A stretch of 64,000 bases of DNA from Thuidium tamariscinum (taxonomy: Eukaryota; Streptophyta; Bryopsida; Hypnales; Thuidiaceae): positions 496,001 to 560,000 of the forward strand of contig OX344753.2 in the NCBI GenBank assembly GCA_947034885.2, in the 5' to 3' direction. A model generated the notes under the pieces. That model worked only from the letters and a program-made list of their open reading frames with translations. It ran no database searches and had not been told where the DNA came from. The translations under genes and the position numbers were made by a program. Shown one piece after another: positions 35,479 through 57,272 of this stretch; positions within the stretch are counted from its first letter, which is position 1; every line of letters begins with the position of its first letter.

Positions 35479-36290
35479 ATGAAGGATCGACATCCTTCAA
35501 TCTTACTTGGGCCCTCTGAGGCCCCGGATGCTCTACTAGAGGACTTACTACCATTTGAGATTGCCCCTATGATGCTACCCCGAGTACTCTCTATTATAGT
35601 ACCTAGAAGGCTAAGGAAAATTTCAATTTTCTACCAATTTCTCAAATTCTTTAGGTCACAAGACAATGATCCCGCCGCCTATATTGAGAAATTGGAGGAG
35701 ATTTTAATCTCCCATTCGGTCACCAACCGAAGCTACTACTTTATATGGTTCTCCAACACCTTAATGGGGATTGTTTATTCTTGGTATCATTCCCATGAGG
35801 CCAGGACCTTTGTGACATGGAGACAACTACAAGCAACATTTCTTAGCAGCAAGCTCTAACTACACTTACCAATATCCGGTGGGGCCCAATGGAGGATATC
35901 ACGACTTACATCCATCGCTTCCAGATGGTGTGTACCTACTTTGTAGGACGACTACTTAATGATTGTATCATACAACATTATTTCATCGAAAAAGTAGATT
36001 CAACATCTATAAATTTGAGAAACCCTATCTTGAAGGCCAATCATTCTTGACGCCCCCATCCAAACTGCCTTGGAAATCGAGATTATTGACAAGGAGAATG
36101 ATTGTATAGTACGGAGGGTGGCTAACCCCATACCAGCTTTCATCCCAGTCTATCAACAAGAGGCCAGCCTCCTAACTTATAGGCACTTTATACCTAAAGA
36201 AGAACCATACCCCTTGGCTACTTGGGAACCCATTTTATTATTAACTACCCCTGTTAATCAGCTCTATATAGAAATGCGATAGGTCTCCAA
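35479..36290 (+). pseudogene. LTR-retrotransposon gag relic
   Basis: Retrotransposon gag proteins form the particle that packages element RNA. The first frame (35479-35859) contains WYHSHEARTFVTWRQLQATF, the WY...F.TW..L...F signature of Ty3/gypsy gag. A shifted frame continues with MEDITTYIHRFQMVC, the matching M.dI..Y..RF block, and another shift gives TALEIEIIDKENDC (about 36.06 kb). At least two frameshifts break it. No protease, reverse transcriptase or long terminal repeats were recognised nearby. Confidence 0.65.
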
Positions 36291-36741
36291 CAACATGACC
36301 CGAGTCGTATAGGAGCTAGCAGAGCAAATGGCCTACTTGGTGAAGGGCTAGAATTAACAAGCCCCTAACATCATATTCATTAAAATGAGAGTTTTCTATC
36401 GAAATGAGAGATTCGCAGATACTCAAATTTACAAAGTTAAGAATACCAATTATATTTAGGAATAAGAAAGTAGTGCAATAACACAGGAAACGAGATTATA
36501 GGCCTTAAGTTTAGTAATGATAGGCACAATCTCCTGAATAGAAAGTACTTTTTGTACAATGCAGTCATTGAAATTACAAGCATAGACTACAGATGCTTTG
36601 AATGTATACAAGTTTTTCTCTCAACAGAGAAATAGCACATCAATACTAGAAGCCCTAAATCTTATATTCCATACAAATGTCCCCACTGATTCTAATAAAA
36701 TCTTATACTATGTACAATTGATGCTTACCGTCACATTCTTG

Positions 36742-37110
36742 ATAGTCGAAGCATCTCATCTCCCCCGACTGTGTTGGGCTTGTCAGTAGAAGCTTCAGAA
36801 GACCAGCCATTGTTAGAAAAGAAGAAATTGGAGGAAAAGCTTCAATGCAATTCTTCGCAGAGAAACAGTAGACTCAAGAACATCTAGGTGCCACTCCGCA
36901 GTTCCCTAAGTGGCAATACGAAGCACAGAGGTTCCAATTGCCACTAATGGAACTGCTTAGAGTGGCATTTGGATGTTTTTGTTTCTACAATTTCTGTGCA
37001 AAGATCTACGTTGAAGCTCATCTTCCAATTTTCTCCCTTCCTAACAATGACCCATCTTCTAAAACTTCTACTGACAAGGCCATCCCAATCGAGGAAGATG
37101 AGATACTTTA
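36742..37110. repeat. Long imperfect palindrome built from an inverted coding fragment
   Basis: Left arm about 36742-36915 and right arm about 36936-37110 pair over roughly 170 bp with a loop of about 20 nt. Matching blocks include CATCTCATCT, CTTGTCAGTAGAAG, CATTGTTAG, AGCTTCAA, CAGAAA, TGCCACTC, GCAGTTCC and AGTGGCAAT, each read against the inverse of the other arm. The right arm keeps an open frame (VAFGCFCFYNF...IPIEEDEIL then stop), so the palindrome probably arose by inverted duplication of a gene fragment. A transcript would fold into a long hairpin of the kind that yields small RNAs. Confidence 0.8.
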
Positions 37111-37546
37111 ACTTCCTAGCTTGAAAATTTTTTTACGGTTTTGCATCAAATGATTTGAATACATTTTTCTAGTATATTTGTCATTTCACATGACTCTAAT
37201 GTCACTAACTATATCATCTACACTGTACTTATAACTCCCGGCTATACAATAGTAGTGCCTCAAAATTTAGTAGCCAGTCAATGACATTTGACTGTCTTCA
37301 TCTATATAATATTTTTCTATATACAAAACTTTACTCGTGCGATTTACTCTTCATCTTCGCCATGGCCATCAGAATTTCTGGACCACGGCTGTACCCTTTG
37401 GCTATCTCCCCCGCCTCCCGTATTTGTTCCCTCCGTTGCATCTTCAAGGACCGAAGCTCCCACGAATCCCATGATGGAGTGGAGCACTGATTGCATGACG
37501 GACCTTCATGTTTTCTCTTCATCCTCTCACTCTGGAACCTGGATAA

Positions 37547-38290
37547 TCATCGAGGAAGTCGGGGCTGACTGCGCGCGTAGTCAACGACCGGCTCACATCT
37601 CACATCAAGAACCGGCGACATAACTCCCGGAAGTTTGAGAGGATAATTTGCGTCTTCATACAGTTTCCTGGAGACCCCTTTGTCTAAGGGAGACTGATCC
37701 TTTGTTGACAGCGAAGGCTCCCTTGAACGAAGAGGCGAAGGGGAGGCCGATACCGGGAGCCGTGGCAGTCTGTCTGGGGGGCTGTCCACCACTCCATCTT
37801 CGATTGGTCTTGTCGAGAAGTCCATGGAGGAATTTAACGTGGGTGCCGAGCCGAGGAAGTTCCCAGTGCTGAGAATGACGTACTGCCTGTAGTCTAGGAT
37901 GGAGTCCTCGGACGCCCGGCAACGTCGATCGATACTTTCGCCTGGGTAGAATGAAGCGCTGACCCCCTGAAGCGAAAAGGGACAGAATCAAAACCAGAAG
38001 ATGAACAAGATGCACTGAACTCACGAAGGAATTCGCAGTGAAGGTCTCTGAAGAACACGCAGCAATATTTCCTCGCTCACACTCTTTAGCTCGACCCGAG
38101 CTAAAACGCAAGGACATTTCGACTAGAACAGAACATGCAAAAGCTACACATCAGCTCGATCCAAGCTGAACTTCATACCTCGCAAGGATTTTCTAACTAA
38201 AATTGTGAGATCCTCGTACGACGTCCATAAGCTTGCCATACTCACAATGACCCCTTTCGTCGCAAAGCATACGTCGTCCAATTCTTCCAT
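37547..38290 (-). CDS. Unrecognised 154-aa protein, two exons
   Basis: Exon 1 (38246-38290) reads MEELDDVCFATKGVI and ends at a GTGAGT donor; exon 2 (37547-37966) follows a TTCAG acceptor in phase 0 and reads GVSASFYPGES...DYRQYVILSTGNFLGSAP, then a Ser/Pro-rich low-complexity tail (DSPPDRLPRLPVSASPSPLR). I do not recognise a family. The intron carries two copies of the 21-bp palindrome (38085 and 38151), the same arrangement as in neighbouring genes, which supports it as part of the same unit. It lies just downstream of the phosphatase-like gene on the same strand. The model rests on splice sites and frame only. Confidence 0.5.
38085..38171. repeat. 21-bp palindrome, two copies (38085-38105, 38151-38171)
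   Basis: TTTAGCTCG, ACC, CGAGCTAAA and a weaker copy TCAGCTCGA...AAGCTGA. Both lie in the intron of the 154-aa gene. Confidence 0.85.
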
Positions 38291-38311
38291 TTTTATTTTC
38301 ACGGAAAACCT

Positions 38312-39356
38312 TCAGGCCCACGTCGCGATGGACGTGTAATTGCTGAAACCAAGGAAGTAAGTTGCGAGAAGGAAATTATCTTTCTCTCCATTCCCCCGAT
38401 GAATCCATGATTCCGCAAGCACTACATTCTCAAACTTGTTCATGATGTGCTTCCGAGGGTTGTCGTCCACTATCACAGTATTATCGATAGTGAACCCCCC
38501 CCGCCTGAAAAGCACGTCTAAATTTTTCAAGAACAAGTCCTTTTCAGTACCGGGTTCTTTAAAGGAGGTCAGCCTCCCAGAGCGATCCCTGCATTTAATT
38601 GTCTTGCACGCATCTTGACCGAGAACGAGGAAGGGCTTTTGCCCATCCCGAAAGAGGTAATCGCAAATATCCTCAATTGTGGATTTCTTCATTGAACTCC
38701 ATACTGAAACAAAAGCTATCTTTCCTAACTCCACAAGGAACGTGGAGCAGTTAGGCCGAACAAAGACGGCTTTTGGCCCCACAACCGCGGCCATGGTGGT
38801 TGAGTGCGGTTCTGATCGGTTGTTGAACTGCTTGATCGACCCCTTTGACTTCCAGTCTTCCGTGACACATAGAATGCCATTGAGATCCAGGACGACGTTT
38901 ATCCATTTCACAGCCCCCCCACACCTCAATGGCCGATGGACATCTTCCGTTGCCCCCCCGCGAGCTATTGGAGGGCCAGACGCCTGTTAGAAAACGGAGG
39001 AGAGCGCAGCCAGTTAACAGATGCTGAACTGGTATGTTGCGCTCAAGAAGATAAACCATTTAAAAAAAAGGGGGAACACTATATGACATGACCAATGAAG
39101 CGAACTCTACCTCTTGATAAGTCGAATTTGAGGGTTGGTTGATGTCATCTGCGATTGCGGAGGTACGCTCGAGGTAAGAAGGCTCTCCCTCTGATTTTCC
39201 CTTGTCACCTTCTGTCAAGCCCTCGACATGTACAATGCTTACTAGAGTAGCCGGTAGAGGAGATTCCGAGAGGGGGGGCACAAATGCATGCAACTCGTCA
39301 ACAATTACATGGCTTGCGGTACAAATGTTTGTGAACTGCCGTTTGTGAGAAATCAT
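38312..39356 (-). CDS. FCP1/NIF-like HAD-superfamily phosphatase (305 aa, two exons)
   Basis: Exons 39111-39356 and 38312-38983, phase 0. FCP1-like phosphatases of the HAD fold remove phosphate from serine or threonine on protein substrates. Motif I is VVLDLNGILC, where the usual DxDx(T/V) is DxNG; this DLNG form is known in some plant HAD proteins but lacks the second aspartate, so activity is uncertain. Motif II is VSVWSSM, and motif IV is VIVDDNPRKH with the paired aspartates. The C-terminus (WIHRGNGEKDNFLLATYFLGF) resembles the end of FCP1 homology domains. The first exon is low-complexity and acidic/Ser-rich. The start ATG at 39356 is the simplest choice; an exon further upstream (about 39370-39489) cannot be excluded. 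A 21-bp palindrome lies 150 bp upstream at 39509. Confidence 0.75.
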
Positions 39357-39508
39357 ATATTACATACTCAGAATCTGAGTGCCTATACACAAAATTGATT
39401 ACAAAATTTGTAGGCAATCCTACAGCTATTTTTTCCTCAGGACTGTTCAGCACTATGGAAAAATAAATACTGCCTTCAAAACTCTGCACCTATACCATTC
39501 CTATACAA

Positions 39509-39529
39509 TTTAGCTCGAATCGAGCTAAA
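39509..39529. repeat. 21-bp palindrome upstream of the phosphatase gene
   Basis: TTTAGCTCGA, A, TCGAGCTAAA: a perfect palindrome around one central base. It lies between the end of the ParB-like gene and the start of the phosphatase gene. Confidence 0.9.
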
Positions 39530-39694
39530 ACTACAAAGAAAGGAAAACTGAGTTGTCATTGGGCACAACCTGCTGGTGGATCTTCAGTGGGAAGGGAAGC
39601 GCTCCCGAGTTCCGCTTCGGAAGCATCCACGGCCAGGTTGTGCCCAACCACAACACTATCTGCCGCCGCGGAAGTTCCCTCTCGCTCGGCAATC

Positions 39695-39836
39695 TTGCGC
39701 GCGTCATGTAAGACATTCAGCTCCTTGTCGAATGAGGTCTCCGGAAACTCGTCATCCAGAGGGGGTTGCGCGCGTCATGTATGACATTCAGCTCCCTATC
39801 GACTGAGGTCTCCAGAAACTGCTCATCGAGAGGAGG
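39695..39836. repeat. 71-bp tandem duplication that shifts a reading frame
   Basis: Units 39695-39765 and 39766-39836, both starting TTGCGCGCGTCATGTA, differ at a few bases. The period of 71 is not a multiple of three, so the minus-strand gene running through it changes frame and stops at 39717. Confidence 0.85.
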
Positions 39837-42800
39837 AGGGAGAGGAGTTGCGACCGGAGATTCCATCGGGAGGGGTGGTGCGACATTGACGGCCACTTGA
39901 GGACTCGCCACATTACTGTCGTTTGATGTTGAGGGGCGCCCCGATATCTGTAGCTGCGCAGGTTCAGAGGTTGGAGAAATTGCTGCCAGCGGCACAATGC
40001 CAGCCTTGTCTAACAAGAAGGCCAGAATTTGGTTGCTCTTCTCTCGCTCCGCCCTGTCTCTCTCCCTCTCCAACCTATTCGCCTCTACTTGCTCCCGCAT
40101 GAACTGCGCATTTTGCTCTTGAATCTTCAAATTCGCTTCGTTCACCTTCGCTTGCTCCATGCGATCCTTCTCTAGCTGAATACGGTCCCTCTCTCGTTCT
40201 TCCCGTAGCTGCGCTACGGCGAGCTCCTGCTTCTTATGCTGAAGTGCATTCTGGGCATTCTGCGCATTCATCTGATCGATCTGCAACTTCTGCATCTGCT
40301 CCATCCGCTTCATGACGATTGCCATGTTGTCCCTCTTCCTCTTACGTTCTGGCTGACTAGCATCGGTAGGAGTCTTCGGCGTTTGAGCCGCTGGCGGTAG
40401 CATTGAAGACGCCACGGACCTGGGGACATCTGATCCTGGGCGACTCGTTGGAGTCGCTATTTCGTCGAGCCCCAATTCCTCAACATCGTCGTCGGGCTCG
40501 TCTTCCTCATCATCCGAGAACTCCTCAGAGTCATCGAAGACAGGAGCTGCCCTTCGCTTCTGTTTCATGCCAGGCGAGTCTTGATTGGATCGCAGTTTCC
40601 TCTTCGACGATGAAGGCTCGGACTGCGAACCGGGAGCAACGTCTTGCGACTTTTTTTGATAGCCGCTTTCCAGGAAGTCTGCCTTGTCCAATGTCATGGC
40701 CTTCAAGCAGAGCTCTTCCCAGTAAGGCGACTTTTCTAAGAACCCAGTAGCGTAAACGTGGACGCAACTCATCTGCAGCAAGAAGAGATTAATCGTTAGA
40801 TAACTCACGAATGACAGCAAGCACGTTTTAGCTCGACTTGAGCTAAATGACATAACAATGCACAAGTAAGCGAAGGCTATTACTGCATAGATAAGAAATA
40901 GACCCACCATGGCAGCGCAGGTGAACTTCCCGCTTGTGAATCCTGAGAAGACACACATCCCAGGGGTATAGAATTTGCGGATTAGCCACAAATAGAATTC
41001 CATGCGGAGTTCCAGATTGTTTAGCCGGTACTCAAGTTCACTGTACGCACGCGCTTTCATGTATCTATTCGTGTCGGGACACAAGAACTCCTCAGGAATT
41101 CTGACCTGCACAGGATTCGCGGGGTTCTGCAAGAACATTAGAAGAACCTTCTTTGGTGTCCTTGCCGCTGCCGCATCACCTAGCCGGTCATTTTTCCCAG
41201 CGTGGTAGTCGGCGTATTCAATGTTGTACTTGTCAAGAGCCTTGTTGGTTTCTACAAACCGTAAAACCTGCGCTTGTTCCTTTTTGTCTGCGCAAATGAA
41301 GAGCCAAGATGAAATCTCTCCGACCTTGGAACTCTTTTTGAACATTGAGCTCACGACTTCAACAAAATATGGACAGTCGACTGTCGACTTGTCCTTCTTG
41401 CTCATGCCTGGAAGCCAACGGAAGTCAACCACTCCGAGCCCGATTTGCTTTGGCGTCTCCTCCGACCACATACCTCTGGGCCACTCCGACGTCACGTTGT
41501 TGATTTCGTTGTACGTCCGGTAGTATCCATTCGCCGTTGGCTTGACAAATTTTGTCTTGTGCTCAAGAAACGCTTGGAAAAAAGAGAACGCTTCTGGCGA
41601 CAACTGAGTACAAGTCTTGTTCTTCGACCTCACCATCTTTGCCTCCACAAAGTACCTCTCCTCGGGCCTGTCGAGGAGAACATCCATAGTGGCCCTGGAA
41701 AACATGCGTTCGTTTTTTAAGGCCTTCCAGTTCTCAACGATAATTTCGTTGTTTGCGTTCATGAGGCCAAGCTTCGGCTTGATTTGGTGAAGCTCTTTTT
41801 TTACGAGATGCTTCCGCTTCCGCCTTTCCGCCCATTCCTTTGTGGTGTAGCAGCTATCCAGCACCGACGATATTGCCTTAATTGTCACTTTAGGATAACA
41901 ATGCTTTCTTTTGTCACCCGTCTGGTTTAAAATATGCTTTGCAAGCTTTCCCAGCTCAGGATAGCTTAGATTGCCAAGGAACTTGAAGAATTCCCGGGTG
42001 AGCATGCAGTTCTCTGGGTTCCAATCGGTCCTCGCATTAAACAGCTTCTCCGTATTCGGGTTAAAAAGCTCTCCGTGGGCGGCGGCTGTTATGACCTCCT
42101 TCCAGAGATTGTAAACATCATCAGGGGCGGTGATCAGCTTCAGCTCATTCGTCAGCTTCAGCTTCTCTTCTTTGTCCTTCACCTTGGACAGCTTGAGATT
42201 TTTGTTTACATCGATCATTGAAAATCGAACATAAACAGCTTTTTCGAATTCCTGATATCACAATCCGTCCACATTAGAGGTGTTCTCTACTTTAGCTCGA
42301 GTCGAGCTAAACCGCAAAAGAGTCACAATCATGTATAAAGAAAATCACATGCAAAAAAAGGCAGGCAATATCAATGTTCAGTGCTTACATTGAATTTATT
42401 TTTGTTGCGGAGATTATCCGCTGTTCGTCTAATCGCTGAGGCGGTCCCAACGGAGGAAGCCTCCTTCGGATTTTTTGGCCTATCCATGGCCTCCCACACG
42501 GATCGCGCTCCCAAAATATTCGTGGCCCACGACGACTGTGTTGCCACAAAGTGATTTGTTCGATTATAATACGCTGAAATGTTCCGGAGCTTCTCTTCAT
42601 CCGCTGACCACACGACAAAGCATTCCCATTTCCGAAAATGCTTCTTGGTCTCCTCATCGATGTTGTTAGCGTCGTTGACAATCCTTTCACTTGCTTCCAC
42701 ACTATGCTGCCCATTGATGATATAGAACTTGCCCTCTTCAATATCCTCCCATTTGGTTGGCTTTGCAGAGTGTCCCACAAGCATAACGCATAGGGTTTGA

Positions 42801-43840
42801 TTGTTAGATTTGTCCGGAATATTTAGAAGCCAAGTTACCATATCATCAACAATGCGTGTTTCCTTCGAACGAATGTTGAAGGTTGAAGGAGCAGCGATGA
42901 GCTTCGTGATTTCAATCTCTTTCTTCTCACCAACAGGGAAGACGTAAGCGTCTTCGCAAGTAGACTAGAACCGTTGGTACACCTCACTCACTTGCTTGTA
43001 ATCTTGCTTTCTTTCGGTCTTGCGGGAGTGAGGAACGTTTACCATTTCTTCCACATAGCTCCCTTCCGCAATTTCGGATTGCTCTATGGATTTGGTGGGT
43101 AGTACGACTTTGGACGTGGAGGGGCCGGCTTTCTTTCCCTGCTTTTGAGAGGGATTCCTTGGTTGCCTTTGAGAGGCACGCTTTGGTTTTCCAGACCCAG
43201 TCTCCACGACAGAGTTGCGTTTTGAACTCTCACTCCTTCCCGGATGCTCGGTGTTCATGGACACCGTGCGTGGCTTCTCCAACTGATTTTTGAGCTGGAT
43301 CTTCCCTTTCAGAGTGTTGAGATCACTGAACATGTATCGGAGCTTGGCACAAAGTTTTTTCCCATTGATTGGGGCTCCGTTCGCATTCTGCCATTCTTTA
43401 TTATCTAGTTTTTTTTCTAACTCCTTTATCTCATCTGCAAATGACGTTCGCTCTAGACTCTTCAAAAATGGAGTCAAGGTGAATGGTATGAGAACTGAGT
43501 CAAGGCAAATGGTGAAGTGATACTGGTCCTCCTTAGGAATATCTGGATCAGATGTCACACACTTGATCTTTATCGCGGGATGCGCATCTGCTTCCACGTC
43601 CTTCACTCGTTCATCAAATGACAGTTGCAGAAAAACAGCTGACTTCTTGAACTTGTATGAGAAGGCTATTTCTTCCTTGAAAGGAATCATGTGAAAACTC
43701 CAGCTTTCAACTTGGTCTGGGTCTTTGAATTCCCAGAACTCGCCCTCACAGAGCATCATGTCCTCCTCATCGATGTCGTCGGGGTTCTGCACGTCGCTTT
43801 TTCGAAAATACTGTTCAAGGCTAGCCACTTGTTCTTCCAT
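39717..43840 (-). CDS. ParB-like domain protein with methylase-like segment and coiled coil (large, multi-exon)
   Basis: Likely one gene with exons 42389-43840, 42191 (or 42218) to 40908, and 40772-39717. The first exon has a novel N-terminal part, an in-frame TAG at 42965-42967 (possibly the end of an 81-nt intron), then a ParB/sulfiredoxin-like domain with GKFYIINGQHSVEAS, matching the DGQHR-type signature. The second exon has RYFVEAKMVRS, VVDFRWLPGMS and ELRMEFYLWLIRKFYTPG-MCVFSGFTSG, which resembles the C-terminal SAM-binding part of DNA adenine/cytosine-N4 methylases (WLI.k.t.pGd.VlDpF.GsGt), though the usual DPF and DPPY residues are not conserved. The third exon is acidic, then a long Glu/Arg/Gln coiled coil (about 40040-40340), then a Pro-rich tail. 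Introns 42192-42388 and 40773-40907 each hold one 21-bp palindrome at mid-length. The ATG at 43840 follows a CAAAACAG acceptor, so a 5'-leader intron is likely. Function unknown; methylation activity is doubtful. Confidence 0.6.
40827..40847. repeat. 21-bp palindrome inside a 135-bp intron
   Basis: TTTAGCTCGA, C, TTGAGCTAAA (one mismatch between arms), mid-way in the intron 40773-40907 of the ParB-like gene. The intron is a multiple of three and has no stop, so it hides inside a long open frame. Confidence 0.88.
42291..42311. repeat. 21-bp palindrome inside the 42192-42388 intron
   Basis: TTTAGCTCGA, G, TCGAGCTAAA: a perfect palindrome at the centre of the intron between the ParB-like and methylase-like exons. 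Confidence 0.9.
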
Positions 43841-43888
43841 TCTGTTTTGGAAAGGATTATTAGATTAGAATGCTTGCTGAACTTGCAG

Positions 43889-44275
43889 TTTAGCTCGATT
43901 CGAGCTCAATCTCATAGGTGAGATTCAATGAAGAGATTATTTGTTCATTATACGTTCAACGCCGAAAGATTATTGTTTTTTTCAGTGGTTATTTTTTATT
44001 TGCTTGGAGTTCAGCTCGAATCGAGCTAAACTGCAGCCTCTGTAGTTCTAAGATCCGTATATTAATCTTTACAATGCTAAAGAACTGGAATTGGATCCTC
44101 ATACAAAAATAATAAATGAATAAAACAGTCATCTGAAGAGGAAGATATTAAAATTAATTTGCACTCAGTTATAAAAACAATTTGCAGTTCAACTCGTTTC
44201 GAGCTGAACTGCCACCAACTACTCTGAATCTATAGAAAGAAGCTGACTCTGCAATTCAGCTCGACTGGAGCTAAA
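43889..44275. repeat. Cluster of four 21-bp palindromes in the leader of the ParB-like gene
   Basis: Copies at 43889-43909, 44010-44030, 44188-44208 and 44255-44275, each a variant of TTYAGCTCGA, one base, and its inverse. They lie directly upstream (minus strand) of the splice acceptor before the first coding exon. A degenerate half-site follows at about 44803. Confidence 0.9.
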
Positions 44276-45660
44276 TTGCAAAAACTAAGGGATTAGGGTT
44301 TAGGGTTCTACTTATCATTGGGGCCGATACATATATTACAGAGCGTCATACTCTTTGTAGACTTCTAAAAACACTAGAAATTAGCGTTTTCATTTAGGGT
44401 TTAGGGTTTTAGACTACTCATTCAGATGATGCACATTATGGAATTAGATATGAATCAATGCAAAATTTTGTTTAGGGTTCAGGCATCTCCCCATGATATA
44501 CGCTGTACTTTCAATTACCAAAGTTGGAATTCAATTTAGGTTACAGAACTTCACTTACTCTGTAGGTCGAGGAATGCACTGTCGTCCCAACGTCCTTCCC
44601 AACCTTCCTATACGCACAAATACCTCGAAAATCTGCAAGGAATTCCACATTTTCAAGGTTCATTACAATAGCTAACAATTATGGATCACGTAGGAAAGCC
44701 AGAATTTCACTACATGCAGCTTCTGAATCTCAAAAGCACTGGCCAAGCACACAATACGGTCCAATGCACTCGAATTCGTATTCTTAACGCTACCAAATCA
44801 ACCGAATTGAGCTGAATTGCCAATCTAATCCCTCAAATTTGCATGTTACACCTCAGAAAATCACACAATAAAATCGTGATTCAAAACTCAGACACAATGC
44901 AGGCCTAATCAAGAGGAAAAAAACCCTCGCAACTCAAACAAGTTGAGCGGAAGCCCACCTCCGTTCTCTCACACACTGAAACCATAATTACTTTTGTAGA
45001 AACATGATGCAGGGCTAAGCAACAGAAATAAATCAAGAGAAATGAATCCACAACTCAAGACAAGCTTCTGTGTCTTCTTTAAATGAAGCTTAATAGAATA
45101 CATAGAAATGTACCCTAAAACCTAAACAAACAATACAAGCAAATTTTACAGAAAGACCTGATCAAAGAAAACACTAAACCTGCATTGAAGGTTATAAGGT
45201 TTAGCAAGACTCACTCACCGTCAATAAACGCAAATGCTGTCCCCACCGCAAATCGCAAGGCAACCAGAACTCTCGGACGGCAACCTCACACCTCGCATTG
45301 CGAACCCACACTGCGACCCTGAATCGGAACTGCGACTGTCAATCGCGACAGAACGAGAGGGGAAATCGATGGTGCCGTGGGAAACTCTCGGAAGTTGGTG
45401 AAGTGCTCCTCCCACAAGTTGAAGCAGTCCTCTCACACACAGGTGTAGCGCTTCTCTGAAACAAAGATGAAGCGCTCCTCACACGCGCGAATACGTCTTC
45501 CGAACACTACCGCTAAACCTCGCAGAACGATCTCGCAAGCATCAAGCGAAAGACTCGCCCAAAACACGGAAAAGCAACAAACAACACGGAAAAGCAGCAA
45601 AGAATACGGAAAGGCAACAAACGAAGAGTAACAAGAGCGCCAAACCCTAGCGGGTCGAGG
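44276..45660. promoter_or_regulatory. Upstream region of the ParB-like gene, with telo-box motifs
   Basis: Telomere-like TTTAGGG doublets occur at 44293-44305 and 44393-44412, with a single at 44469. Read on the minus strand they are AAACCCTAA telo-boxes, which are common in plant promoters and first introns. From about 45220 to 45660 the DNA is GC- and CpG-rich, the likely promoter or first non-coding exon of the minus-strand gene. The transcription start cannot be fixed from sequence. Confidence 0.4.
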
Positions 45661-46030
45661 AAGCCGCTTCCTGGGATACCCGGCTAAATCCAACCCGGTG
45701 TGGTTGATATCCGCTTCGTTTGATATCCGGGTATCACCTACCCGTGTGGATGGTACTGGAGTATGGTCCATACCCGTTGGAATTGAGGTTCGGGTATGAT
45801 CTTTTATGAAATGTGAGATGGAACCCAAAAAAGGTGATACCCGTTGCAATTGATACCCGGGAAAAGGATGCCCCTCTTTAAAATTGGAATCCGGGTATCA
45901 CCTTCTACGAAATGTGGAATGGAACCCGAAAAAGGTCATACCCCCTACAATTGATACCCGGGAAAAGCATATCCCTCTTAAAAATAGTATCTGGAAAAAA
46001 TGCATACCCGACTTAAATTGATATTCATCA
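45660..46030. repeat. Diverged repeats carrying the palindrome GATACCCGGG/ATACCCG
   Basis: Two clear units of about 105 bp (roughly 45784-45888 and 45889-45993) share CGGGTAT...GAAATGT...TGGAACCC...AAAAAGGT and ATTGATACCCGGGAAAAG. Further ATACCCG and CGGGTAT motifs extend on both sides, from 45678 to 46010. They lie just upstream of the GC-rich region of the ParB-like gene. Confidence 0.75.
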
Positions 46031-48962
46031 GGCCTACAGAAATTGATATCTAGTCTGTTGACACGTGTAGAACAAATATACTATATTCAATAAAAAACTA
46101 CAAAAGCTATCCAAAGTTACATATTCAACTAAAACCTAAAAATGTAATGGCAAACAAGAGAGGTTAAACACATTACAAGGATTACTTGCATATAAAATAA
46201 AATGGTAATTATTTTTTCACAGTTTCAAGAGTGCAGTGTCGGAATCTTCTACAATTCTTTACCTCAAAAGAGTTCCTTTGATTATTTTATTATCAATGAT
46301 TCTCACAATTCTAGGAATCATGAATTCCAAAAGGCCCCCCCCCACATCCTATAATCGATAGGATTTGGATTCTGCATATCTTATATGTACAAATTGTATT
46401 ATGGTAATTCTATCTTTTTTCTGTAATTCTACCAAAAAAATTTATTTGAAGTCCTTTATTGATTTCCATGAATTTGTTATGATTTAATGGTATAATACAG
46501 ATTTAGTGAAGAGCCTATTATTGTTGTATAAATCTTCCTCAAATGTTCTAATTCAAGAGAATATGAGTTCAAATACTTATTTCTTGTTAATAAAAAGAAA
46601 TCTTTGAAAAGAATTAACATTGTATTTCAAAGGTCTCCTACAATGACTATTTCTTATTCATTACATTTAACTAAACCTCTATGCCTTGTCCTACCACTAA
46701 GAATGCCTTCAAATTTACATAAGAAGATACTATGAAAATCTATTTAATCCTAATGCCAAAGTAAAATGAAAATATTTGATGTCCCATTTCAATTATTAAC
46801 AATTTCTGTGACTAAATAAATGTACAAATGTACTTCATTTTGCATAGTTAAATGTACTTCAAAATTAAATAATGTTCATTAATTATTATTTCATTTTCTT
46901 TCAAGGAAATGTAAGTACGTTTTTGAATTTTAAAATAAATCCTATAAATACATTTTACCTTATTTTGTCAAGGTCCTTTATTGTCTAATAACAAGTAGAG
47001 GCTACTAATTAATTATTATAAACAAATTAGTACTCATATGTTTGATTTCTTGTTAAATTTGGATTCTATGAGTCATTGCCTTACTTCCCTATTTCAATTG
47101 AAGTAAGCTGTCCTGTACATTAATTCTTCAATATTTTAGTCAAAATACTCTACAATTAACAAAAAATTTACCCAAATATGAAGTACAGAAGTATGTAATT
47201 CAAAACTTTACAAAATGAAATGAATTAATAATCTTTTCAAGAAATAAACATTAACACTTCTTTTCAATAATGTGCTTCGTTTACTAATACAAAATGATTG
47301 TGAATGCTATGAGGTTGCATTCTAAGGAGTGAAAGACAAGTGGCAAGGCCATCATAATGGCATCATTATACAGGCAATTATTTGATTTTGAATTTGACGA
47401 TTTCACCACTAGTAACTCATTAAATTTGATGAGTTCATGACTTGTACCTCATTAAATTTGATAGGTTGAGCACTTGTTCCTCATTAATTGGAATTGCATA
47501 TGTTGTATCATGAATTACATTTTAAATGCTATAATTGACAAGCATGTGAATGACGTTTCTTTAGCACATCAAAGTGCGCTTCTTCAATGCATTTCAGAAC
47601 ATGGATTTGTAAATTTAACAAGTTCAATCCCCTAAAAACTTTTGGCCCAACATTGTAGTAACTGCTTCTAGTATACGACTATTAAAATAATCATGAATTT
47701 CATTAATTTTCTTATTAAACAGTATGGAAATATACATACCTTCAACATGACAACTATTTATAGTTAGAAATAAGGACTGTTCAATCCCCTAAAAAAAATT
47801 TCAATAGTATCATTTATTTATCACATTATTTATTATTCACTGAATGCTATGTAGAATCCTAAATTATTCAAAATTAATGGAATGAAGAAAACTCTTTTTT
47901 TTCCTTTCTATTTCTAAGATAGGTTCAACTTTATAAATTTGTACGTGTTCTTAATCATAGTAACATTTCATCTTATCAATTGGATGGGTTTGTACAAGAT
48001 AAAAGAAATTGGAACATAAAAATTTAAATATACATTTTAAAGTAGTCTCCACTTAATTATATTAAAGCTTTCTAATTCAATATAGGAATTCACTATCTTC
48101 TTCTACTATAGAGACAATAATCATCAAGAAAATAGTTTTTCCATTAATAAATCCTAAAATCTCCTAACAATTAAGGTATGTATATTTTGGACGGTATGCT
48201 TCAACTTCACGTTGTTTAATTTTTCTTAACCACAGTTTCTCAAAACCATAATGGGATTTCGAACTTTTTTGAACAAATGAAGAATTATTGAGGAAGAAGG
48301 TGTCTGTAGTTCAATTTTTTGACGACTCCTTAATGACGCACAAGTTTAAAACTTCTACTTTCATTTTTTGGTTAGCCTTCACGTGAAATAGATTACACTT
48401 CAATGGTTTCATTTCTACAACATATAGCAAAAGACACCCAATTTGAAATATACAATGTAAAAATAGGGAGGAAGAAGGTGTCCATATTTCAATTTTCCAT
48501 TATCTCTTTAATGTCGCACAAGTTTACAACTTTTATATTTCTTTTGTACCACGTCTTCATGAGAAAAGATTGGACTTTGAAGGTTACCTTTGATTTCTAC
48601 AACATACAGTAGCACATTTTGTATTTGAAATATACATTGTAAAAGTAGAAAGCAATAACTGAAGGTGCCGCAGAGTTCAAGTTTTCCACAAATCTTCATT
48701 ATATTTAAAGAATTAAGAAGATTTTGTTAAGATGAATGTCTTCAAAAAATAGAATATTTTAGAGAGAAGACCAATACACGTTTATTTCCAAAGCAATGAA
48801 GAATTGATCATTGCATGAAGTGTACCCCTTTTTTTTAGTATCTCTTTTTTCATTCTTCGAAAAGAGAACTTGCTTTTAACATGCAGTTAATGACTTGTGA
48901 ACTAAAAAATAAACACAATAACCAAGTGGTGACTTCAACATTGAATATCTTTGGTGCTATTT
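46031..48962. other. AT-rich non-coding DNA in the middle of the candidate element
   Basis: No coding features. From about 48.38 kb, faint versions of the downstream satellite appear (motifs such as TTCACGTGAAAT). Confidence 0.4.
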
Positions 48963-50440
48963 ATTCCAACTTGTACCCATCTTCATTTTGCTTTCCTTTA
49001 CGTGAAATTCAAGAGAGAAGAGGCTTTGAATTCATTTGTGAAAAATGGCAATATTCTTTACTATCTTCAAATGCATAAGAAAGTCGGGTAGAAGAACCAT
49101 TCCAACTTCTACGTATTTTTTTGATCCATTGCCCACGTGAAATAGGCATGATTTGATGCTCGCTTGAATGTTGAGAAAATGACAGGATTTAATTAGACAT
49201 TTATCGGAATACAAATGGAATTGGCCATGCTCCCTTTCGGGAAACCAGAATTCCTCATGGATTCGAATGGTCTACGGCCATTCCAACTTGTATGTATTTC
49301 ATTGGTCCATTGCCCACGTGAAATACTTTCTTCAAGTATATAAAAAAATCAAGCAAAAGAACTGTGAATATTATTTAAAATTTACAACATTGAAGGTCCC
49401 ATTTATTCCAACTTGTACCCATTTTTTTTGGCTTTCCTTTACGTGAAATTTAAGAGAAAAGAGGCCTTGAATTCATTTGCAAAAAATGGCAGGATTGTGT
49501 ACTATCTTCAAATATAGAAGAAAATCACACAAAAGAACCAAAAACATTATATTAAACATACAACATTCAAGGTCCTACTTATTCCAACTTGTACCCATTT
49601 TCTTTTGGCTTTCCTTTACGTGAAATTTAAGAGAAAACAGGCCTTGAATTCGTTTCCAAAAAATGGCTGGATTTTTTACTATCTTCAAGTATAGAAGAAA
49701 ATCGGGCAAAAGAACCATGAACATTATATTAAACATACAACATTCAAGTTCCTACTTATTCCAACTGGTACCCAATTTTTTTTGGCTTTCCTTTACGTGA
49801 AATTTAAGGGAAAACAGGCCTTGAATTTGTTTCCAAAAAATGGCTGGATTTTTTACTATCTTCAAGTATAGAAGAAAATCACACAAAAGAACCAAAAACA
49901 TTATATTAAACATACAACATTCAAGTTCCTACTTATTCCAACTTGTACCCATTTTTTTTGGTTTTCTTTTACGTGAAATTTAAGAGAAAAGAGGCCTTGA
50001 ATTCGTTTGCAAAAAATGGCAGGATTTTGTACTATCTTCAAATATAGAAGAAAATCACACAACAAAACCAAAAACATTATATTAAACATACAACATTCAA
50101 GTTCCTACTTATTCCAACTTGTACCCATTTTCTTTTGGCTTTCCTTCACGTAAAATTTAAGGGAAAAGAGGCCTTGGATTCGTTTGCAAAAAATGGCAGG
50201 ATTTTTTACTATCTCCAAATATAGAAGAAAATCACACAAAAGAACCATGAACATTATATTAAACATACAACATTCAAGTTCCTACTTATTCCAACTTGTA
50301 CCCATTTTTTTTTGGCTTTCTTTTACGTGAAATTTAAGGGAAAACAGGCCTTGAATTTGTTTCCAAAAAATGGTTGGATTCTTTACTTTCTTCGAATACA
50401 TAAAAAAATCAATAACACAGAATCGTCAACATTGTAGAAC
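48963..50440. repeat. Satellite array, 176-177-bp monomer
   Basis: Six regular monomers begin at 49405, 49581, 49758, 49935, 50111 and 50288, anchored on ATTCCAACT(T/G)GTACCC. Each contains CTTTACGTGAAATTTAAG, a GGCCTTGAATTCGTTT-like block and ACTATCTTCAA. Three diverged monomers precede them at 48963, 49099 and 49280 with irregular spacing. No coding capacity. Confidence 0.93.
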
Positions 50441-53186
50441 ATTCATCCTTGGTGACATTGAAACTTGTAGAATACTTTTTTCTTCATGATTAGAAGACAA
50501 TACAAGTGTTGGTTTTTCTTTAAAATGCTGATAGAATGGAGGCTTCAAATGAAATGCTAAGAATCATACACATGGTTCACTTAATTTAGAGAACAAAAAG
50601 AGTACTAAATACTTTATATTTTTTGGTGAGTAACATATTTAGTTTGGAAGTTCAAGTTTTGTATGCATAATTACTTTTTTTTTGTTTTAGTCGTCATCAG
50701 TATGTTGGAAAAAGTGAACATCTGTATTTACAACTACTCTTTTATATTTGTCATAAATTTCTGAACATGGAAAAAATGGAAATCAATCATATAGTTAAAA
50801 TGTTTCCAACGGGATCGAACTTGCAATAAAATTTTATTCTTCTGGATGCAATCATATATAGATGAATTACTAGTTTGTACTAGGCATCATCTATGTTTCA
50901 CAATGATTTGGGATTTATTCATATGAATTCTAAGTCAAAGAAGAAGTTGTAATGAAAAATGTTTATTAATTAAATGTTGAAGGTTTTATTGACAAAACAA
51001 ACCAAAATGTAGAAATGAAGTTGTTTTACTAATTAAAGAATCTATAGTGAAGACAAATGTTAGAATTGCAAAGAAGTTTGTTGTTATTAATGTAAAAAAT
51101 ATTGGGATACTAAGGATAGAACTTAATAAAGCGGAAGTATTTACCTTCAAGCATTTTAATTATAATTTATCTCAATAATCATGTATCTTAATAAATAGTA
51201 ATGTATGTGTCGTAAAAACTGTACTAACCATTTGAATATCCCATTTTCTTTCTGTTGCCAAGTGGAATTTGCCAAAATAAGTAATAACCTTTTTATCTCT
51301 ATAAAAACTATACTAATCAACCGAATATCTTGTTTTCTATGAATGCCAAGTGAAATTAGAGAAACTAAGCTACAATGAACAATACATAGATTAAACTTCT
51401 ATGAATTCGTCAAGTGTAAACCATTTTCATGAGTGTATTACGTAGAGAACCTAAAATTTCAACCCTAAAAACTAATTGTGAACCTTGACCGTAAACTGTC
51501 TGCAAAAGTGAAAATATCACATAAAGAAAAGAAGCCGTATGCAAATCAACCGAACCCTTTCCCTATTGTAGATTACGAAAATATCATAAGGATCCATTGT
51601 ATTTAGTGTAAGATTCTTTTCGATTTATAGTTCGGATTTCGGAATACATTGGAGATTTTCTTCATAATAATGAAGTTAAAATTAGTAGGATTTGGTTTGG
51701 AATGACGTACCAAATGTCATGGTATCACAGCACTATAGCAGGCAAAAGTCAACGAATAAAATGAAGGGAATCTGTCGACGGCGAAAGAGTCCAAACATTT
51801 TGCAGGGACATTGACTGGAATGGTCATAAGAGTTCCTGAACTTTGGGGCGCCACTTATTCTAGTGTGCAGTGAAGGTGGCTTTTGGAGATTCCGGAACCA
51901 TTTCAAATTGTTTCCGCATCTTCGAAAGCGCCAAATGAGTTGGCGCTTTTTTTTTGCCGCGCAAGGAGCCGAGTGTACGTCGCAACAGCACTTGCAAACC
52001 TCTCTTTCACCCTTTCGTCCTCGGCTGCCTCGATGTTGGCGTGCACATCGGATCTTCTGTTTTGTTGTTGGCTTGCGTCGTTACAATTTCTATAGTGCAC
52101 TCTTTCTTGTCTGCGAAGTCGTTGTTTGCCTTTGTTGTCATCGGCAGTGCTAAGCCGCCACAACTCGTTCCCGGTTTGTAACCTTTGCTATCATCGAGAT
52201 TGGTATCCGCGCAAGTTATTTCCGGTTAGCATTTGCGCCTGTTCTAGCTTTGTTGTTTGGCAGTGGTATACATGTTCCTTGCTTTTGTTTCGTTGCTGAG
52301 AAGAGGGGTTCATTGCGTTTCTTAGACATCTGCGCATTAGATTCTGGATCGGTTCAGCGTTCGTCGAAGCTTTAGCCCATCATAGTTTCGTAATCGTCAG
52401 GGCCGTTCCATCTGCTTGAGAGTGTAGCACGAACGTTCTGTGATTTTCGGTTTACTATTTATAGTAAGTTTTTTTATTGAACTGCGTTTGGATTTGTTCC
52501 GTAAAACACGGAATACTAGGTCTAATCTTGCAAATCAGCTCGATTCGAGCTGAATCATTGCTAAAGTGATAGTCTGTATATGTTGAGTAAAATATATTCA
52601 GTAGAATGTAAGTCATTTGTGAATCCATAGAAATGGGAATGCATCCCTTCAGCTCAACTCAAGCTGAAGTGCTGCCTGGAATGAAAGTAACAACTTGACA
52701 GCGTCATATAATCATTTCAGTTCGAGTCGAGCTGAAGTACTGGGTCGAAAATTTAAGAAGGGCTTTGTTTTAGCAACAGCACTTTAGCTCGACTCGAGCT
52801 AAAATACATTCAGAAGTTTCAAAACTTCACAGGTTCCATTAATCCTAGTTTCCCCAGGATCTTTTAAAAAAAGACCCAGTTTACTTAGTCCTGAAATATG
52901 ACTGTACATAATAATATCTTATGTAATATTATAATTTTTACACAATGTAGATATCTGCTATAATAATTTTCTATGATAAAAATTGTACTGATTATTATTG
53001 CAATGATCTCAACATCTATATCTGGTATTTTTAGGAGAATGATAAAGGAATGTTTTTCAATATTTTGAAATTGCATTTCAGCTCGATTCGAGCTGATCGT
53101 ATGTTCAAGTGAGGCGTACTCGGTCAAAAAGAACCGTGTATACAGTGTTACTTACTCTCCTTCTCGATATGATTTGTTCAGGTACG
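50441..53186. promoter_or_regulatory. Upstream region and leader intron of the transposase-like gene
   Basis: AT-rich to about 51.7 kb, then a GC-richer zone (51.8-52.45 kb) that is the likely promoter and first non-coding exon. A probable leader intron ends with the acceptor TTTGTTCAG at 53181, six bases before the start ATG, and contains five 21-bp palindromes. Open frames at 51863-52181 have no family resemblance and are not called. Confidence 0.45.
52534..53097. repeat. Cluster of five 21-bp palindromes in the leader of the transposase-like gene
   Basis: Copies at 52534-52554, 52648-52668, 52716-52736, 52783-52803 and 53077-53097. The copy at 52783 is a perfect TTTAGCTCGA, C, TCGAGCTAAA palindrome; the others carry one or two changes. 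The layout mirrors the cluster in front of the divergent ParB-like gene. Confidence 0.92.
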
Positions 53187-56024
53187 ATGTCTACTACAGA
53201 CATGTCTTCGGAGATGGTGTTCTCTTCAGACGATGAGTTCCAGGATATTGAGGCGATGAATGTTGGTGTGCTTGAGTGTGAAGGTCTACCACGTCGACTG
53301 TGGAATACAAAGTGTGTGACTCTTTACAACGACAACGGCATCATTGTTGGAGAGGGTACCTACCATAGTGTCAACTCAGATCTAGTCCTTGGTGCCAATG
53401 GTCCTCTTGGAGACACCTATATTGCTGTCCACATCTCGAAGACACATTCTGAAGAAGACATTCCTCATGAACAAGTGTATACTCTTGTGGCGTGGCCCAT
53501 CAAACTAGTTCACTGCCGTGGAGCTAGTCTCCATGATCATGATGCTCGGGACAACTTCAATCGTATACAAGCTGCTCTTCTAAACCCGCCTATGCCAACA
53601 TCGGCACGCCCCTACGCAAGTGTAATCAGAAATCCAGCTCGTGAGACTGGTTTGAGAGCGAAAGAGCTACTTACGCAAGATTCCATAAACTTGGTGTCTA
53701 GCAGAGTCTGTTGTGCCAAGAATTGTGTACAGCCTTTTCCTAGGGAGAAAATTCGAGCCTTCCGTGAACGAATGTACCAACGTTCTACATTCAAGTTCAG
53801 AGCGCACCTTAAAACCGAAGTACACAGAAGCGTTCATCATGACTCGAACGGAAGGAAGATGGTTACTGTGGAAGGTGTCAATGTGTGCATGCGGGCATGG
53901 ATGCTTATCTCTGGGGTTCCGGAAGCAACATTTTATCGGTATCAAATGTATGCCAAGGATCAACGTGAAGCAAGAGATCACGCTAACACGGGGCTCATTA
54001 AGCGGAGGAAGCACACTGAACAAGCCTCAGCTACGTTGAAGTGCATTCTAGAGAAAGAAGTTGATCACATGCCACATAAAACGAGAACTTTGAAGTGTGG
54101 AGACAAGGTTGTGTCCATGATTCTCCCAGCTACATTTCAATGGAAGAACCAGATTCCGAAAATCAACGAGGTGAATGCTGCTTTTGGACTGAAAGGGGTC
54201 TCACCTTCTAGCTTGAGCAAGATTAGATCCACTAAATTTGTTGAGTTTGATGTGAAGAGGCCCGGAGATAATTTTGCTCGGTGTGGTACTTGTGACAAAT
54301 TGCAAGAGCTCAGGAAGAGTGCTTTGGCTGGCTTTGAGAGTGCTTTGAAATGGTCAAGAAGGCTTGACAAACATCTTGCCATTGCTCGTGCACATAGGGA
54401 GTTGTACTATGCAAACCGATATATGTCTCATACTTCCCCGCATGAATGCCTCACAATCATGCACGACAAGATGGACCATGCTAAGACTGCTTCTCCTGTC
54501 TTTTCTCACAAGAGTAAGGAGATCGATGGACTAGTGAAGTTGCCCCTTTCTGTCACTGGCATGATTGCCCACGGTCATGGAGATGTCCGTTATGCGCATT
54601 ATGGCTTGGATATCTTCCCTCATGATTCCAATTATACCATCGGTTCTATGGCCAAATTGTTGCGAGATTTGGAGATGGCGCCAAAGTCATCCTCGCGGTT
54701 GTTGTTTGAGGGTTCAGGCTCGGCTTCATTGTTTAAGAGTGTTCTGAAGGGTGCGGAAATTTGCCAAGCTTCTTTGTTGCCTGTACCGGAACTTTTAATT
54801 CCAGCGACGCCATTACCTCCTATTTTGAATGTGCAGATGGACAATGCCACAAGCGACAATAAGAATCGATATGTTTTTTGTTTTTGGTCTCTACTTGTGG
54901 CAAACAAGATCTTCAGAGAAGTATTTGTGAACTTCATGATTGTGGGTCACACCCATGACGACATTGATGCATTGTTTGGAAGGTGGAGTATGTTATTGAA
55001 GAAGGAAAACTTTCCAACAATCCCAATGCTTATGAAGTCGTTCATGGATGTTGAGTCCATTCCTACCATCCCTCACCTCATTGAAGAGGTGCCAGATTTC
55101 AAATTTTTTATTGCAGGGGCTTTTGTAGATGGAGATGAGATGCTTGTTGGACATACGAAGCCTCAACAAGTGAAATTCTACCTTGATTCTAATGGAGTTC
55201 CAGTTATGAAGTACAAGTTGTTGTGCACTGACATGGAATGGTTAGGAGAAGATGGTGGTGGTATCAAGTTGTGGAAGGAAGATTCTGAGGGGCGCAGTTT
55301 GTGGCCCCGTGGAGTTCCATTGCCAGTTCCTCCAAAGCCAATGAGAGGTTTGGAGGACATTGAGAAAGGCATTGCAGGGTTCGTGAAGTATTGGGAGAAC
55401 TTGTGCAATGCAGATGTTACTGGAGAGTGTCGAAGGCGTTATGAACATTTGGTTTACTATTGGCGTGATGTCAAGGATGCTCTACAAGAACCAATTACTG
55501 CTTCAGATGTTTTGAAGGACGGGTTTTGGCCGACTACTCGAATTCAAGCGAACCCTGTTGATCAGTTGGGAGATGATGGCAAGGATCGTGAAGAGTTTAG
55601 GGAGGATGAAGCGTACGTTGGACCTTTGAGGGGTCGTCCACAACCGTCATTTAGGATTGGTCGTGACCTCTTTGAAGGATATTTTGTTGCAGTTCGTCCC
55701 GCAGATGGTAATTCACAGCCAGTTTGGATTGCACGGGCCTTGTCTGATCCAAATAGTAACCCTGAAAAACCAAACTGCGTTCTCATTCAATATTTTCGCC
55801 CAACTTCTAGGAGCCAAGATGTTCAAGACTTTTACACTGGATGGGACACTGAACAAGGTTTACGTTGGAAGGTCGATGTTGCTGATCCACCAGTTTGGGA
55901 AGCTACAAATGCTGTGATGACGGCGTGGAAGTCTCAAATCAAGAAAGATACTCGCCAATGCTTGCTCAAGATTCCGGCTGCACAAATTGAAATTATCAAG
56001 CAAAGCCTTGCTTCATATGTTTGA
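53187..56024 (+). CDS. DUF7869-type transposase-like protein (945 aa)
   Basis: A single coding exon. The ATG at 53187 (MSTTDMSSEMVF) lies just after a splice acceptor; the upstream in-frame extension lacks an ATG. An acidic N-terminal region is followed by SRVCCAKNCVQPF, a Cys block typical of the family, and CMRAWMLISGVPEATFYRY. A CGTCDKLQELR zinc-like CxxC comes next. The putative RNase H-like catalytic core follows: MHDKMDHAKTASP (D427, D430), VQMDNATSDNKNRY (D552) and IVGHTHDDIDALFGRW (H588, H590, D591, D592, D594). These blocks match the domain called DUF7869, found in repeated genes of fungi, cnidarians and early plants and thought to be transposase-derived. The frame is fully open, so the gene is intact and perhaps recently active. 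It diverges from the ParB-like gene and shares its 21-bp palindromes. Confidence 0.85.
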   Translation: MSTTDMSSEMVFSSDDEFQDIEAMNVGVLECEGLPRRLWNTKCVTLYNDNGIIVGEGTYHSVNSDLVLGANGPLGDTYIAVHISKTHSEEDIPHEQVYTLVAWPIKLVHCRGASLHDHDARDNFNRIQAALLNPPMPTSARPYASVIRNPARETGLRAKELLTQDSINLVSSRVCCAKNCVQPFPREKIRAFRERMYQRSTFKFRAHLKTEVHRSVHHDSNGRKMVTVEGVNVCMRAWMLISGVPEATFYRYQMYAKDQREARDHANTGLIKRRKHTEQASATLKCILEKEVDHMPHKTRTLKCGDKVVSMILPATFQWKNQIPKINEVNAAFGLKGVSPSSLSKIRSTKFVEFDVKRPGDNFARCGTCDKLQELRKSALAGFESALKWSRRLDKHLAIARAHRELYYANRYMSHTSPHECLTIMHDKMDHAKTASPVFSHKSKEIDGLVKLPLSVTGMIAHGHGDVRYAHYGLDIFPHDSNYTIGSMAKLLRDLEMAPKSSSRLLFEGSGSASLFKSVLKGAEICQASLLPVPELLIPATPLPPILNVQMDNATSDNKNRYVFCFWSLLVANKIFREVFVNFMIVGHTHDDIDALFGRWSMLLKKENFPTIPMLMKSFMDVESIPTIPHLIEEVPDFKFFIAGAFVDGDEMLVGHTKPQQVKFYLDSNGVPVMKYKLLCTDMEWLGEDGGGIKLWKEDSEGRSLWPRGVPLPVPPKPMRGLEDIEKGIAGFVKYWENLCNADVTGECRRRYEHLVYYWRDVKDALQEPITASDVLKDGFWPTTRIQANPVDQLGDDGKDREEFREDEAYVGPLRGRPQPSFRIGRDLFEGYFVAVRPADGNSQPVWIARALSDPNSNPEKPNCVLIQYFRPTSRSQDVQDFYTGWDTEQGLRWKVDVADPPVWEATNAVMTAWKSQIKKDTRQCLLKIPAAQIEIIKQSLASYV

Positions 56025-56622: not shown

Positions 56623-57272
56623 AACTTAATGCGGTGACTAACTAATGAAAATATTCACATATTAATTAGTATCGAACAACACAGCCTAGATACAAATTGC
56701 AGTTGGAGTCTGTGGCTTTAAAAGGTGGCACCAAATAGAGACTACAATTATATTTTTTCTTCTACTTGAAACTATCATTTTAATGGAAATTACAAGTCTT
56801 GATTTATGAAATGAAAGCCACGAATTTTAATTTAATACAATTATATATGATTTTCTGCTCATGTAAATGAATAGTTTTAATTTGGGAGGTTCTTGATCTC
56901 CCAAATTATTGAATATGATGTTCCCTCCTCAATTCTACAAATTTGGAGTTTAATTGACGAGAGTATGGTGCAACCACTATGGCCAAGCCAACCCCATACC
57001 ACCCTTCTATTCAATGCTTCAAGATGCTTCCCCTCGCCCCAACTTTGAGGTCCAGCACAGTCCTATCAACAATTCAACATCCAAATATTTGAACCCAAGT
57101 ACACAACAACAACTCCTCCAATTGATCCTCAACCTTTAGGTATCCTATGTGTAGGAAGGGTCACCCCTCGGGGAAGTGGTGGATAGGAAACAACATGATT
57201 TGTGAGTGTTCGATGACCATCATCCTACAATTCGTTATGCCACTTAGGATAAGGTTATTCCACTTGAGGGTG

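Follow-up and report, generated by a model that had tools for sequence, protein, structure and literature searches.

Why are fourteen copies of a 21-bp palindrome gathered around a single group of genes in a moss genome? This question is raised by a 64,000-nucleotide stretch of Thuidium tamariscinum (GenBank assembly GCA_947034885.2, contig OX344753.2, positions 496,001 to 560,000), which is called the window here and is numbered from its first base. The initial annotation had taken the palindromes for a binding or processing site that links a DUF7869 gene, a phosphatase gene and a 'ParB-like' gene into one system. We find that they belong to a DNA transposon with terminal inverted repeats (TIRs), whose relatives carry other spellings of the palindrome. 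On balance, though only just, we favour the reading that a predicted homodimer encoded by the element, most likely the 'ParB-like' protein with the motif NGQHS, reads these dyads and opens, or un-silences, the elements of its own family, much as the VANC proteins of Arabidopsis do.

A transposon with many palindromes

All fourteen palindromes are present, one of them beginning at 38150 and not at 38151. Fourteen places in the window match TTYAGCTCGANTCGAGCTRAA with no more than three mismatches, every one of them within positions 36367 to 56922, and at this threshold the roughly 49 kb outside the gene group are free of the palindrome, as had been claimed. The chance expectation for the window is a mean of 0.0 (20 first-order Markov resamples). 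Related elements hold the 21-bp length and alter both arms; the window arm, TTYAGCTCGA, is referred to as the AGC spelling, and AGG, AAC, AAGT, TCT, TCA and AGGTCGT were also seen. In the whole genome (363 Mb, 19 contigs), 1,354 places match with three mismatches or fewer, a count that includes the related AGG spelling, against 14 for the pattern read backwards.

The sites had been supposed to belong to one unit, and this is borne out: the unit is a TIR DNA transposon with 4-bp target duplications. The element of the window is 20,556 bp long (36367 to 56922), as delimited by ends shared with other copies and by the target duplication CCCT. Its ends are inverted repeats (AACATCATATTCA...), the left TIR AACATCATATTCATTAAAATGAGAG lying at 36367 to 36391 on the plus strand and the right TIR (reverse complement AACATCATATTCAATAATTTGGGAG) at 56898 to 56922 on the minus strand. 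By DNA comparison, six other copies start at exactly base 36367 and one starts a base earlier, and the exact terminal GAATATGATGTT of the right end at 56922 recurs in 14 of 30 DUF7869 loci, that of the window included. A 4-bp duplication was found in all ten copies with both ends paired and intact TIRs, the nine besides the window copy having CATT, TTGA, AATA, GGTT, TCCA, ATAT, TAAA, TATT and AGAG; the left ends of L056 and L057, which had no right end for pairing, stand outside this count. In an eleventh copy (L017), CAAC occurs on both flanks and the right TIR is eroded. Two distant relatives show the same plan. One (C1:2904330-2925250) has a DUF7869 protein 63% identical, a phosphatase 36% identical and the duplication CAAT, and for the other (C7:17709943-17727672) the values are 50% and 34%, with a TIR beginning AAGGCCATATTCGTT... 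and the duplication CTAG. The three delimited elements measure 17.7, 20.6 and 20.9 kb, and some copies are far longer between their ends, presumably through insertions.

The DUF7869 gene is a stop-to-stop frame on the plus strand (53097 to 56021; PF25273, E 1.3e-40). It encodes a conserved protein, which the structure of the element suggests is likely the transposase; a profile search against PDB sequences for its fold gave just two unrelated matches (E about 0.9). The minus strand carries a NIF/FCP-type phosphatase frame (38315 to 38986; PF03031, E 2e-15), with relatives in L035, L036, L080 and L081, as well as the 'ParB-like' gene. The latter comprises a 299-codon N-terminal part (42968 to 43864), a frame with the motif NGQHS (42374 to 42964), whose product is the candidate palindrome reader, and a long downstream frame (39720 to 42257) that crosses an intron with a palindrome. 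Of 12 relatives fetched, 10 have the first part of this NGQHS gene as a single open frame with a length of 488-545 codons; this part has 431 codons in L035, is broken in L046, and is split in the window copy by a stop codon between the first two frames just named. The NGQHS gene is the faster-evolving one: in the AGG elements L035/L023 and L036/L034 its identity is 53-57%, where DUF7869 reaches 80-81%.

That the DUF7869, phosphatase and 'ParB-like' genes form one system is supported by the common TIR transposon and by their arrangement, since a divergent 'ParB-like' gene lies 8-25 kb upstream at 37 of the 47 listed DUF7869 loci (47 of 957 candidates were scored), compared with a mean of 0.75 under random placement. 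The ParB label itself had to be given up. The ParB family PF02195 has no match in this genome, though it was matched in 10 of 14 control genomes, and membership was rejected on the searches with Pfam, which gave no ParB match, NCBIfam, PHROGs and a profile search of PDB sequences as well. Above the cut-off, Pfam names only DUF7869 and NIF among the element frames scanned. A weak match to DUF6551 occurs in 3 of 13 'ParB-like' members (best E 0.011), and a search of viral contigs for relatives gave 31 stretches matching a pattern, none of which was confirmed. As for the distribution of the 'ParB-like' loci (150 of 432 candidates scored, with 147 used after three were set aside as second pieces of genes already counted), 69 of the 147 listed genes are on C11 (17.5 Mb, about 5% of the genome), a sink for these elements and possibly a sex or heterochromatic chromosome.

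Some further structures of the transposon deserve mention. A hairpin, TTTGGGAG...CTCCCAAA, overlaps the right TIR at 56881-56905 and is kept, with changes, in the other copies having this end; it had suggested a Helitron-like element, an idea that was dropped on finding the TIRs and 4-bp duplications. Just within the left end, an 84-bp inverted repeat is located at 36744-37113, and many other copies have an inverted pair that matches it. In the gene-free middle, a unit of about 177 bp is repeated six times in tandem (49375-50425).

Palindromes beside genes and in gene-free elements

Where, then, do the dyads sit? They are located in introns and upstream of both gene groups, and in the window they lie outside the DUF7869 coding sequence. 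The palindrome at 38085-38105 is probably intronic, and the weak one at 38150-38170 probably shares its intron, as judged from GT..AG alone. That at 39509-39529 is outside the long frames. The palindrome at 40827-40847 is intronic to the long gene of the minus strand, whose frame happens to stay open there, and that at 42291-42311 lies in the intron after the 'ParB-like' exon. Both intron positions are common to L035, an element of a different family, which has two dyads in each where the window has one and in which the frame at the former intron is broken. Four palindromes (43889, 44010, 44188 and 44255; together 43889-44275) stand upstream of the 299-codon frame, and five (52534, 52648, 52716, 52783 and 53077; together 52534-53097) upstream of DUF7869. 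At 30 DUF7869 loci, 150 sites of AGC or AGG type were found within 1.5 kb before the match and 24 within 1.5 kb after it, while four straddle its first bases and none lies deeper inside, in 86 kb.

Clustering had been expected only beside DUF7869, 'ParB-like' and phosphatase genes. The sites do cluster near such genes, 33 of the 51 AGC sites listed being within 20 kb of a 'ParB-like' gene; the restriction to genes does not hold, because gene-free miniature inverted-repeat transposable elements (MITEs) carry the sites as well. Of the 18 AGC sites away from listed genes, 17 were fetched (the one left out being C4:111208), and they fall into ten loci (L059-L068). Six of these loci are elements of 400-965 bp, too small to contain the genes; each carries 2-11 dyads and is bounded on either side by TIRs of the family type. 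Matching 4-bp duplications flank L060, L064, L066 and L068 (TAAT, TTAA, GAAG and ATTT among these four), while the flanks of L062 and L065, which likewise have both TIRs, are unequal; L061 has a TIR at one end, and L059, L063 and L067 have none. The MITE TIR differs from that of the window at one of the first 13 bases, and a search with one MITE returned 12 other loci with matches of at least about 290 bp, and six of these loci fall outside the fetched set. Since these MITEs hold dyads without holding genes, dyads are kept where there is no gene to regulate. Ordinary autoregulation, in which a factor encoded by the element would act at sites in promoters and introns to control both divergent gene groups and would play no part in silencing, agrees with the dyad arrays directly upstream of both groups, and yet it appears improbable to us given the up to 11 sites retained by gene-free MITEs.

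MITEs of the TCT type were not found, in that the TIR of the TCT element is absent from ten TCT loci with no listed gene nearby (L069-L078), which may belong to elements whose genes fell outside the lists. Four of them (L069, L070, L071 and L075) contain arrays of 6-7 TCT-type dyads (no more than three mismatches) with similar spacing and no TIR found; these arrays are perhaps another non-autonomous derivative.

Form and spelling of the dyad

The geometry of the dyad is fixed: a 10-bp arm, one free base and a second 10-bp arm. In 141 non-redundant AGC-type sites, taken from the window and the fetched loci, the centre base is A, C, G or T in 31, 38, 33 and 39 cases, respectively (0.01 bit), whereas the arm positions carry 1.3-2.0 bits, except arm position 3 (C or T) with about 1 bit; the arm values are inflated because the sites were picked by pattern, from which the centre and the outer bases were free. 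Outside the arms the symmetry continues weakly, as CA...TG at positions 12-13 counted from the centre. Among exact half-site pairs at spacers of 0-12, all 41 have a spacer of 1, and everted or direct pairs are absent. Mismatches between the arms are often C/T or A/G at the CpG, as well as C/T at position 3 or A/T at position 1, and those at the CpG are what would be expected from the decay of methylated CpG. Taken together, these features are the picture of a predicted DNA site for a homodimer.

Paired change of the arms, which had been read as a sign that the palindrome itself is kept, holds in part. Within the window, the outer three bases are unpaired at 38150, 43889, 44010, 44255, 52534 and 53077. 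At arm position 3, however, the 141 sites comprise 66 C/C, 43 T/T, 31 mixed C/T and one other, where about 68 mixed sites would be expected by simple arithmetic on the counts with independent arms. The tendency of the arms to covary, and the intronic position of several sites, might point to hairpins in the RNA that act in splicing or RNA processing. A fixed, neutral centre of a single base leaves no proper loop, and the sites are present in MITEs too, so we give this explanation very little credence. As to the 'binding or processing site' of the initial annotation, the predicted DNA-binding site is thus the more likely half, and a site of RNA processing looks less likely given the geometry.

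What happens to the spelling in related elements? The arm is TTTAGGTCGA in L023-L033, L034, L035 and L036, TTYAGGTCGT at two sites of L022, TTCAACTCGA in L038, TTCAAGTWG in L037 and L039, TTATCTTCGA or TTATCCTCGG in L040-L043, and TTATCATCGA with variants in L044 and L045. The innermost arm pair is frequently non-complementary in the TTCAAGT and TCT families, which leaves a 9-bp arm there, and in AGG families mixed dyads with one AGC arm and one AGG arm are present. In the elements for which both regions were retrieved (L023 with L035, L034 with L036), the spelling found ahead of DUF7869 is also that of the other gene group. Genome-wide, the counts against reversed controls are 413 versus 0 for AGG and 145 versus 0 for AAC at one mismatch, and 1,140 versus 5 for TCT at two mismatches.

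The spelling goes with the 'ParB-like' gene. Among the matches listed, exact sites within 20 kb of a listed 'ParB-like' gene number, besides the 33 of 51 for AGC, 38 of 50 for AGG, 46 of 50 for AAC and 25 of 50 for TCT; these sites reach C5 (AGC), C7 (AGG and AAC) and C10 (TCT), with C11, which holds most of the element genes, unrepresented. The identity of the nearest 'ParB-like' gene to that of the window is 70-100% for AGC, 51-58% for AGG, 41-49% for AAC and 35-38% for TCT, and the spelling fits the identity band in 38 of 40 genes, where the bands are relative to the window gene rather than taken from a tree and give a correlation only. One of the two exceptions, a gene with 36% identity, sits between the two halves of an AGC element. 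That the element took over the site of a host factor is, in this light, most improbable: the spelling varies among co-resident families and goes with the element genes, and just one of 50 listed exact AGG sites (C3:340051) is more than 20 kb from both 'ParB-like' and DUF7869 genes, in a comparison that covered 29 of the 47 DUF7869 loci and a portion of the 'ParB-like' list.

A candidate reader and its possible action

We propose that the NGQHS protein of the minus strand, rather than the DUF7869 transposase, would bind each dyad as a homodimer. Bound at its many sites in introns and 5' regions, the protein would hold the chromatin of its own family open, by anti-silencing as well as transcriptional activation; transposase would then be produced, and both full elements and MITEs would have usable ends. 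If protein and sites change together, each lineage would acquire a private address. A chromatin-opening protein fits because the sites are many in introns and 5' regions and are also present in MITEs. In addition, the window element and the AAC element (the one AAC element with its ends seen) are identical in the first 13 TIR bases and differ in their dyads, and for this reason ends and dyads may have different readers.

Several observations weigh against this proposal. The argument for different readers is weakened by the TCT element (one with known ends), which differs at 4 of the first 13 TIR bases and in the dyad as well. No recognised DNA-binding domain was found in the NGQHS protein. At 2 of the 30 DUF7869 loci (L021 and L033) there is no upstream site, and the second exception to the spelling rule, a gene with 55% identity, has one AGC and one AGG site. 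Among the exact sites listed, 25 of 50 TCT and 18 of 51 AGC sites are away from any listed 'ParB-like' gene. Finally, DUF7869 identity sorts in the same way (84-100% at AGC loci, 78-81% at AGG, 63% at AAC and 50% at TCT, for 29 of the 47 listed loci), so that the spelling correlation cannot single out the reader protein.

Could the dyads instead be bound by the transposase itself, or by an accessory protein, and act directly in transposition? Subterminal repeats do so in En/Spm and Ac. MITEs that keep only TIRs and 2-11 dyads resemble a minimal substrate, and the TCT element has changed in both its ends and its dyads. Nevertheless, the nearest dyads of the window element stand 1.7 kb in from the left end and 3.8 kb in from the right, several are intronic, and the window and AAC elements have the first 13 TIR bases, not the dyad, in common. 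A direct role is consequently possible in our view, but unlikely.

A wider claim, to which we would give somewhat less than an even chance, is that a second, independently evolved system of sequence-specific anti-silencing, or self-recognition, exists in land plants, probably in a moss. Co-resident families would hold private palindromic addresses, which would evolve through a short block of specificity within the otherwise fixed dyad; a dimer encoded by the element would read these addresses, and MITEs equipped with nothing but ends and addresses would borrow them. In the literature searched, a single plant transposon system of sequence-specific anti-silencing was found, VANC in Arabidopsis. 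If true, the moss elements would provide an independent example whose palindromic code, alignable between many co-resident families, would permit direct tests of how reader and site change together; they would also offer many potentially orthogonal protein-site pairs, and the MITEs, with ends and addresses but no genes, would be a natural control.

Surroundings of the transposon

To the left of the transposon, the window contains two PPR genes of the DYW type, each made up of 303-bp units; PPR genes of this type mark the host as a plant and suggest a moss. The first (18206-20674) has four units, 67-70% identical to the reference unit, and the second (29578-33870) has ten tandem units, 75-83% identical to it. 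Between the latter and the transposon there is a dispersed repeat (33900-35479) with many copies, mostly of 80-87% identity, and the frames just to its right look gag-like.

Comparison with known systems

A literature search, outside which most subscription papers lay, returned no description of this element and no mention of DUF7869. In ParB/parS systems, palindromes are repeated in an element, and the moss element is similar in its repeated palindromes and in a protein with a GQH motif; unlike them, it leaves PF02195 unmatched and has no ParB match by Pfam or by profile search against PDB sequences. Sola DNA transposons have TIRs and 4-bp target duplications, both of which are found here, a likeness of structure; Pfam names only DUF7869. 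In En/Spm, the element-encoded TnpA recognises a short motif present in many copies and has links with both transposition and demethylation, but the motifs there are subterminal, whereas the dyads here are mostly internal, in introns and 5' regions.

The nearest parallel in action is with VANDAL elements, which encode a MULE-type transposase and a VANC protein, whose binding to the motif leads to loss of DNA methylation. Among the moss element frames scanned, Pfam gives neither; the genes here are those of DUF7869, a NIF phosphatase and the NGQHS protein, the target duplications are of 4 bp, and MITEs carry the sites. VANC proteins open the chromatin of their own VANDAL elements (PMC5735166; PMC10398659), binding takes place in introns, intergenic and terminal non-coding regions, and the motifs vary between families (PMC5735166). 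The moss transposon is similar in having a short motif with many copies in the introns and non-coding DNA of its own element and few elsewhere: apart from the 33 of 51 listed AGC sites near 'ParB-like' genes, 17 lie in the ten loci that include the six MITEs. In both, too, the motif differs among related families along with the encoded protein, here as a correlation only. The form of the motif is different, a palindromic 21-bp dyad with a neutral centre against motifs like YAGTATTAY arrayed in one orientation. The proteins are unrelated, and the moss system is presumed to be VANC-like in its operation, not a member of that group by descent.

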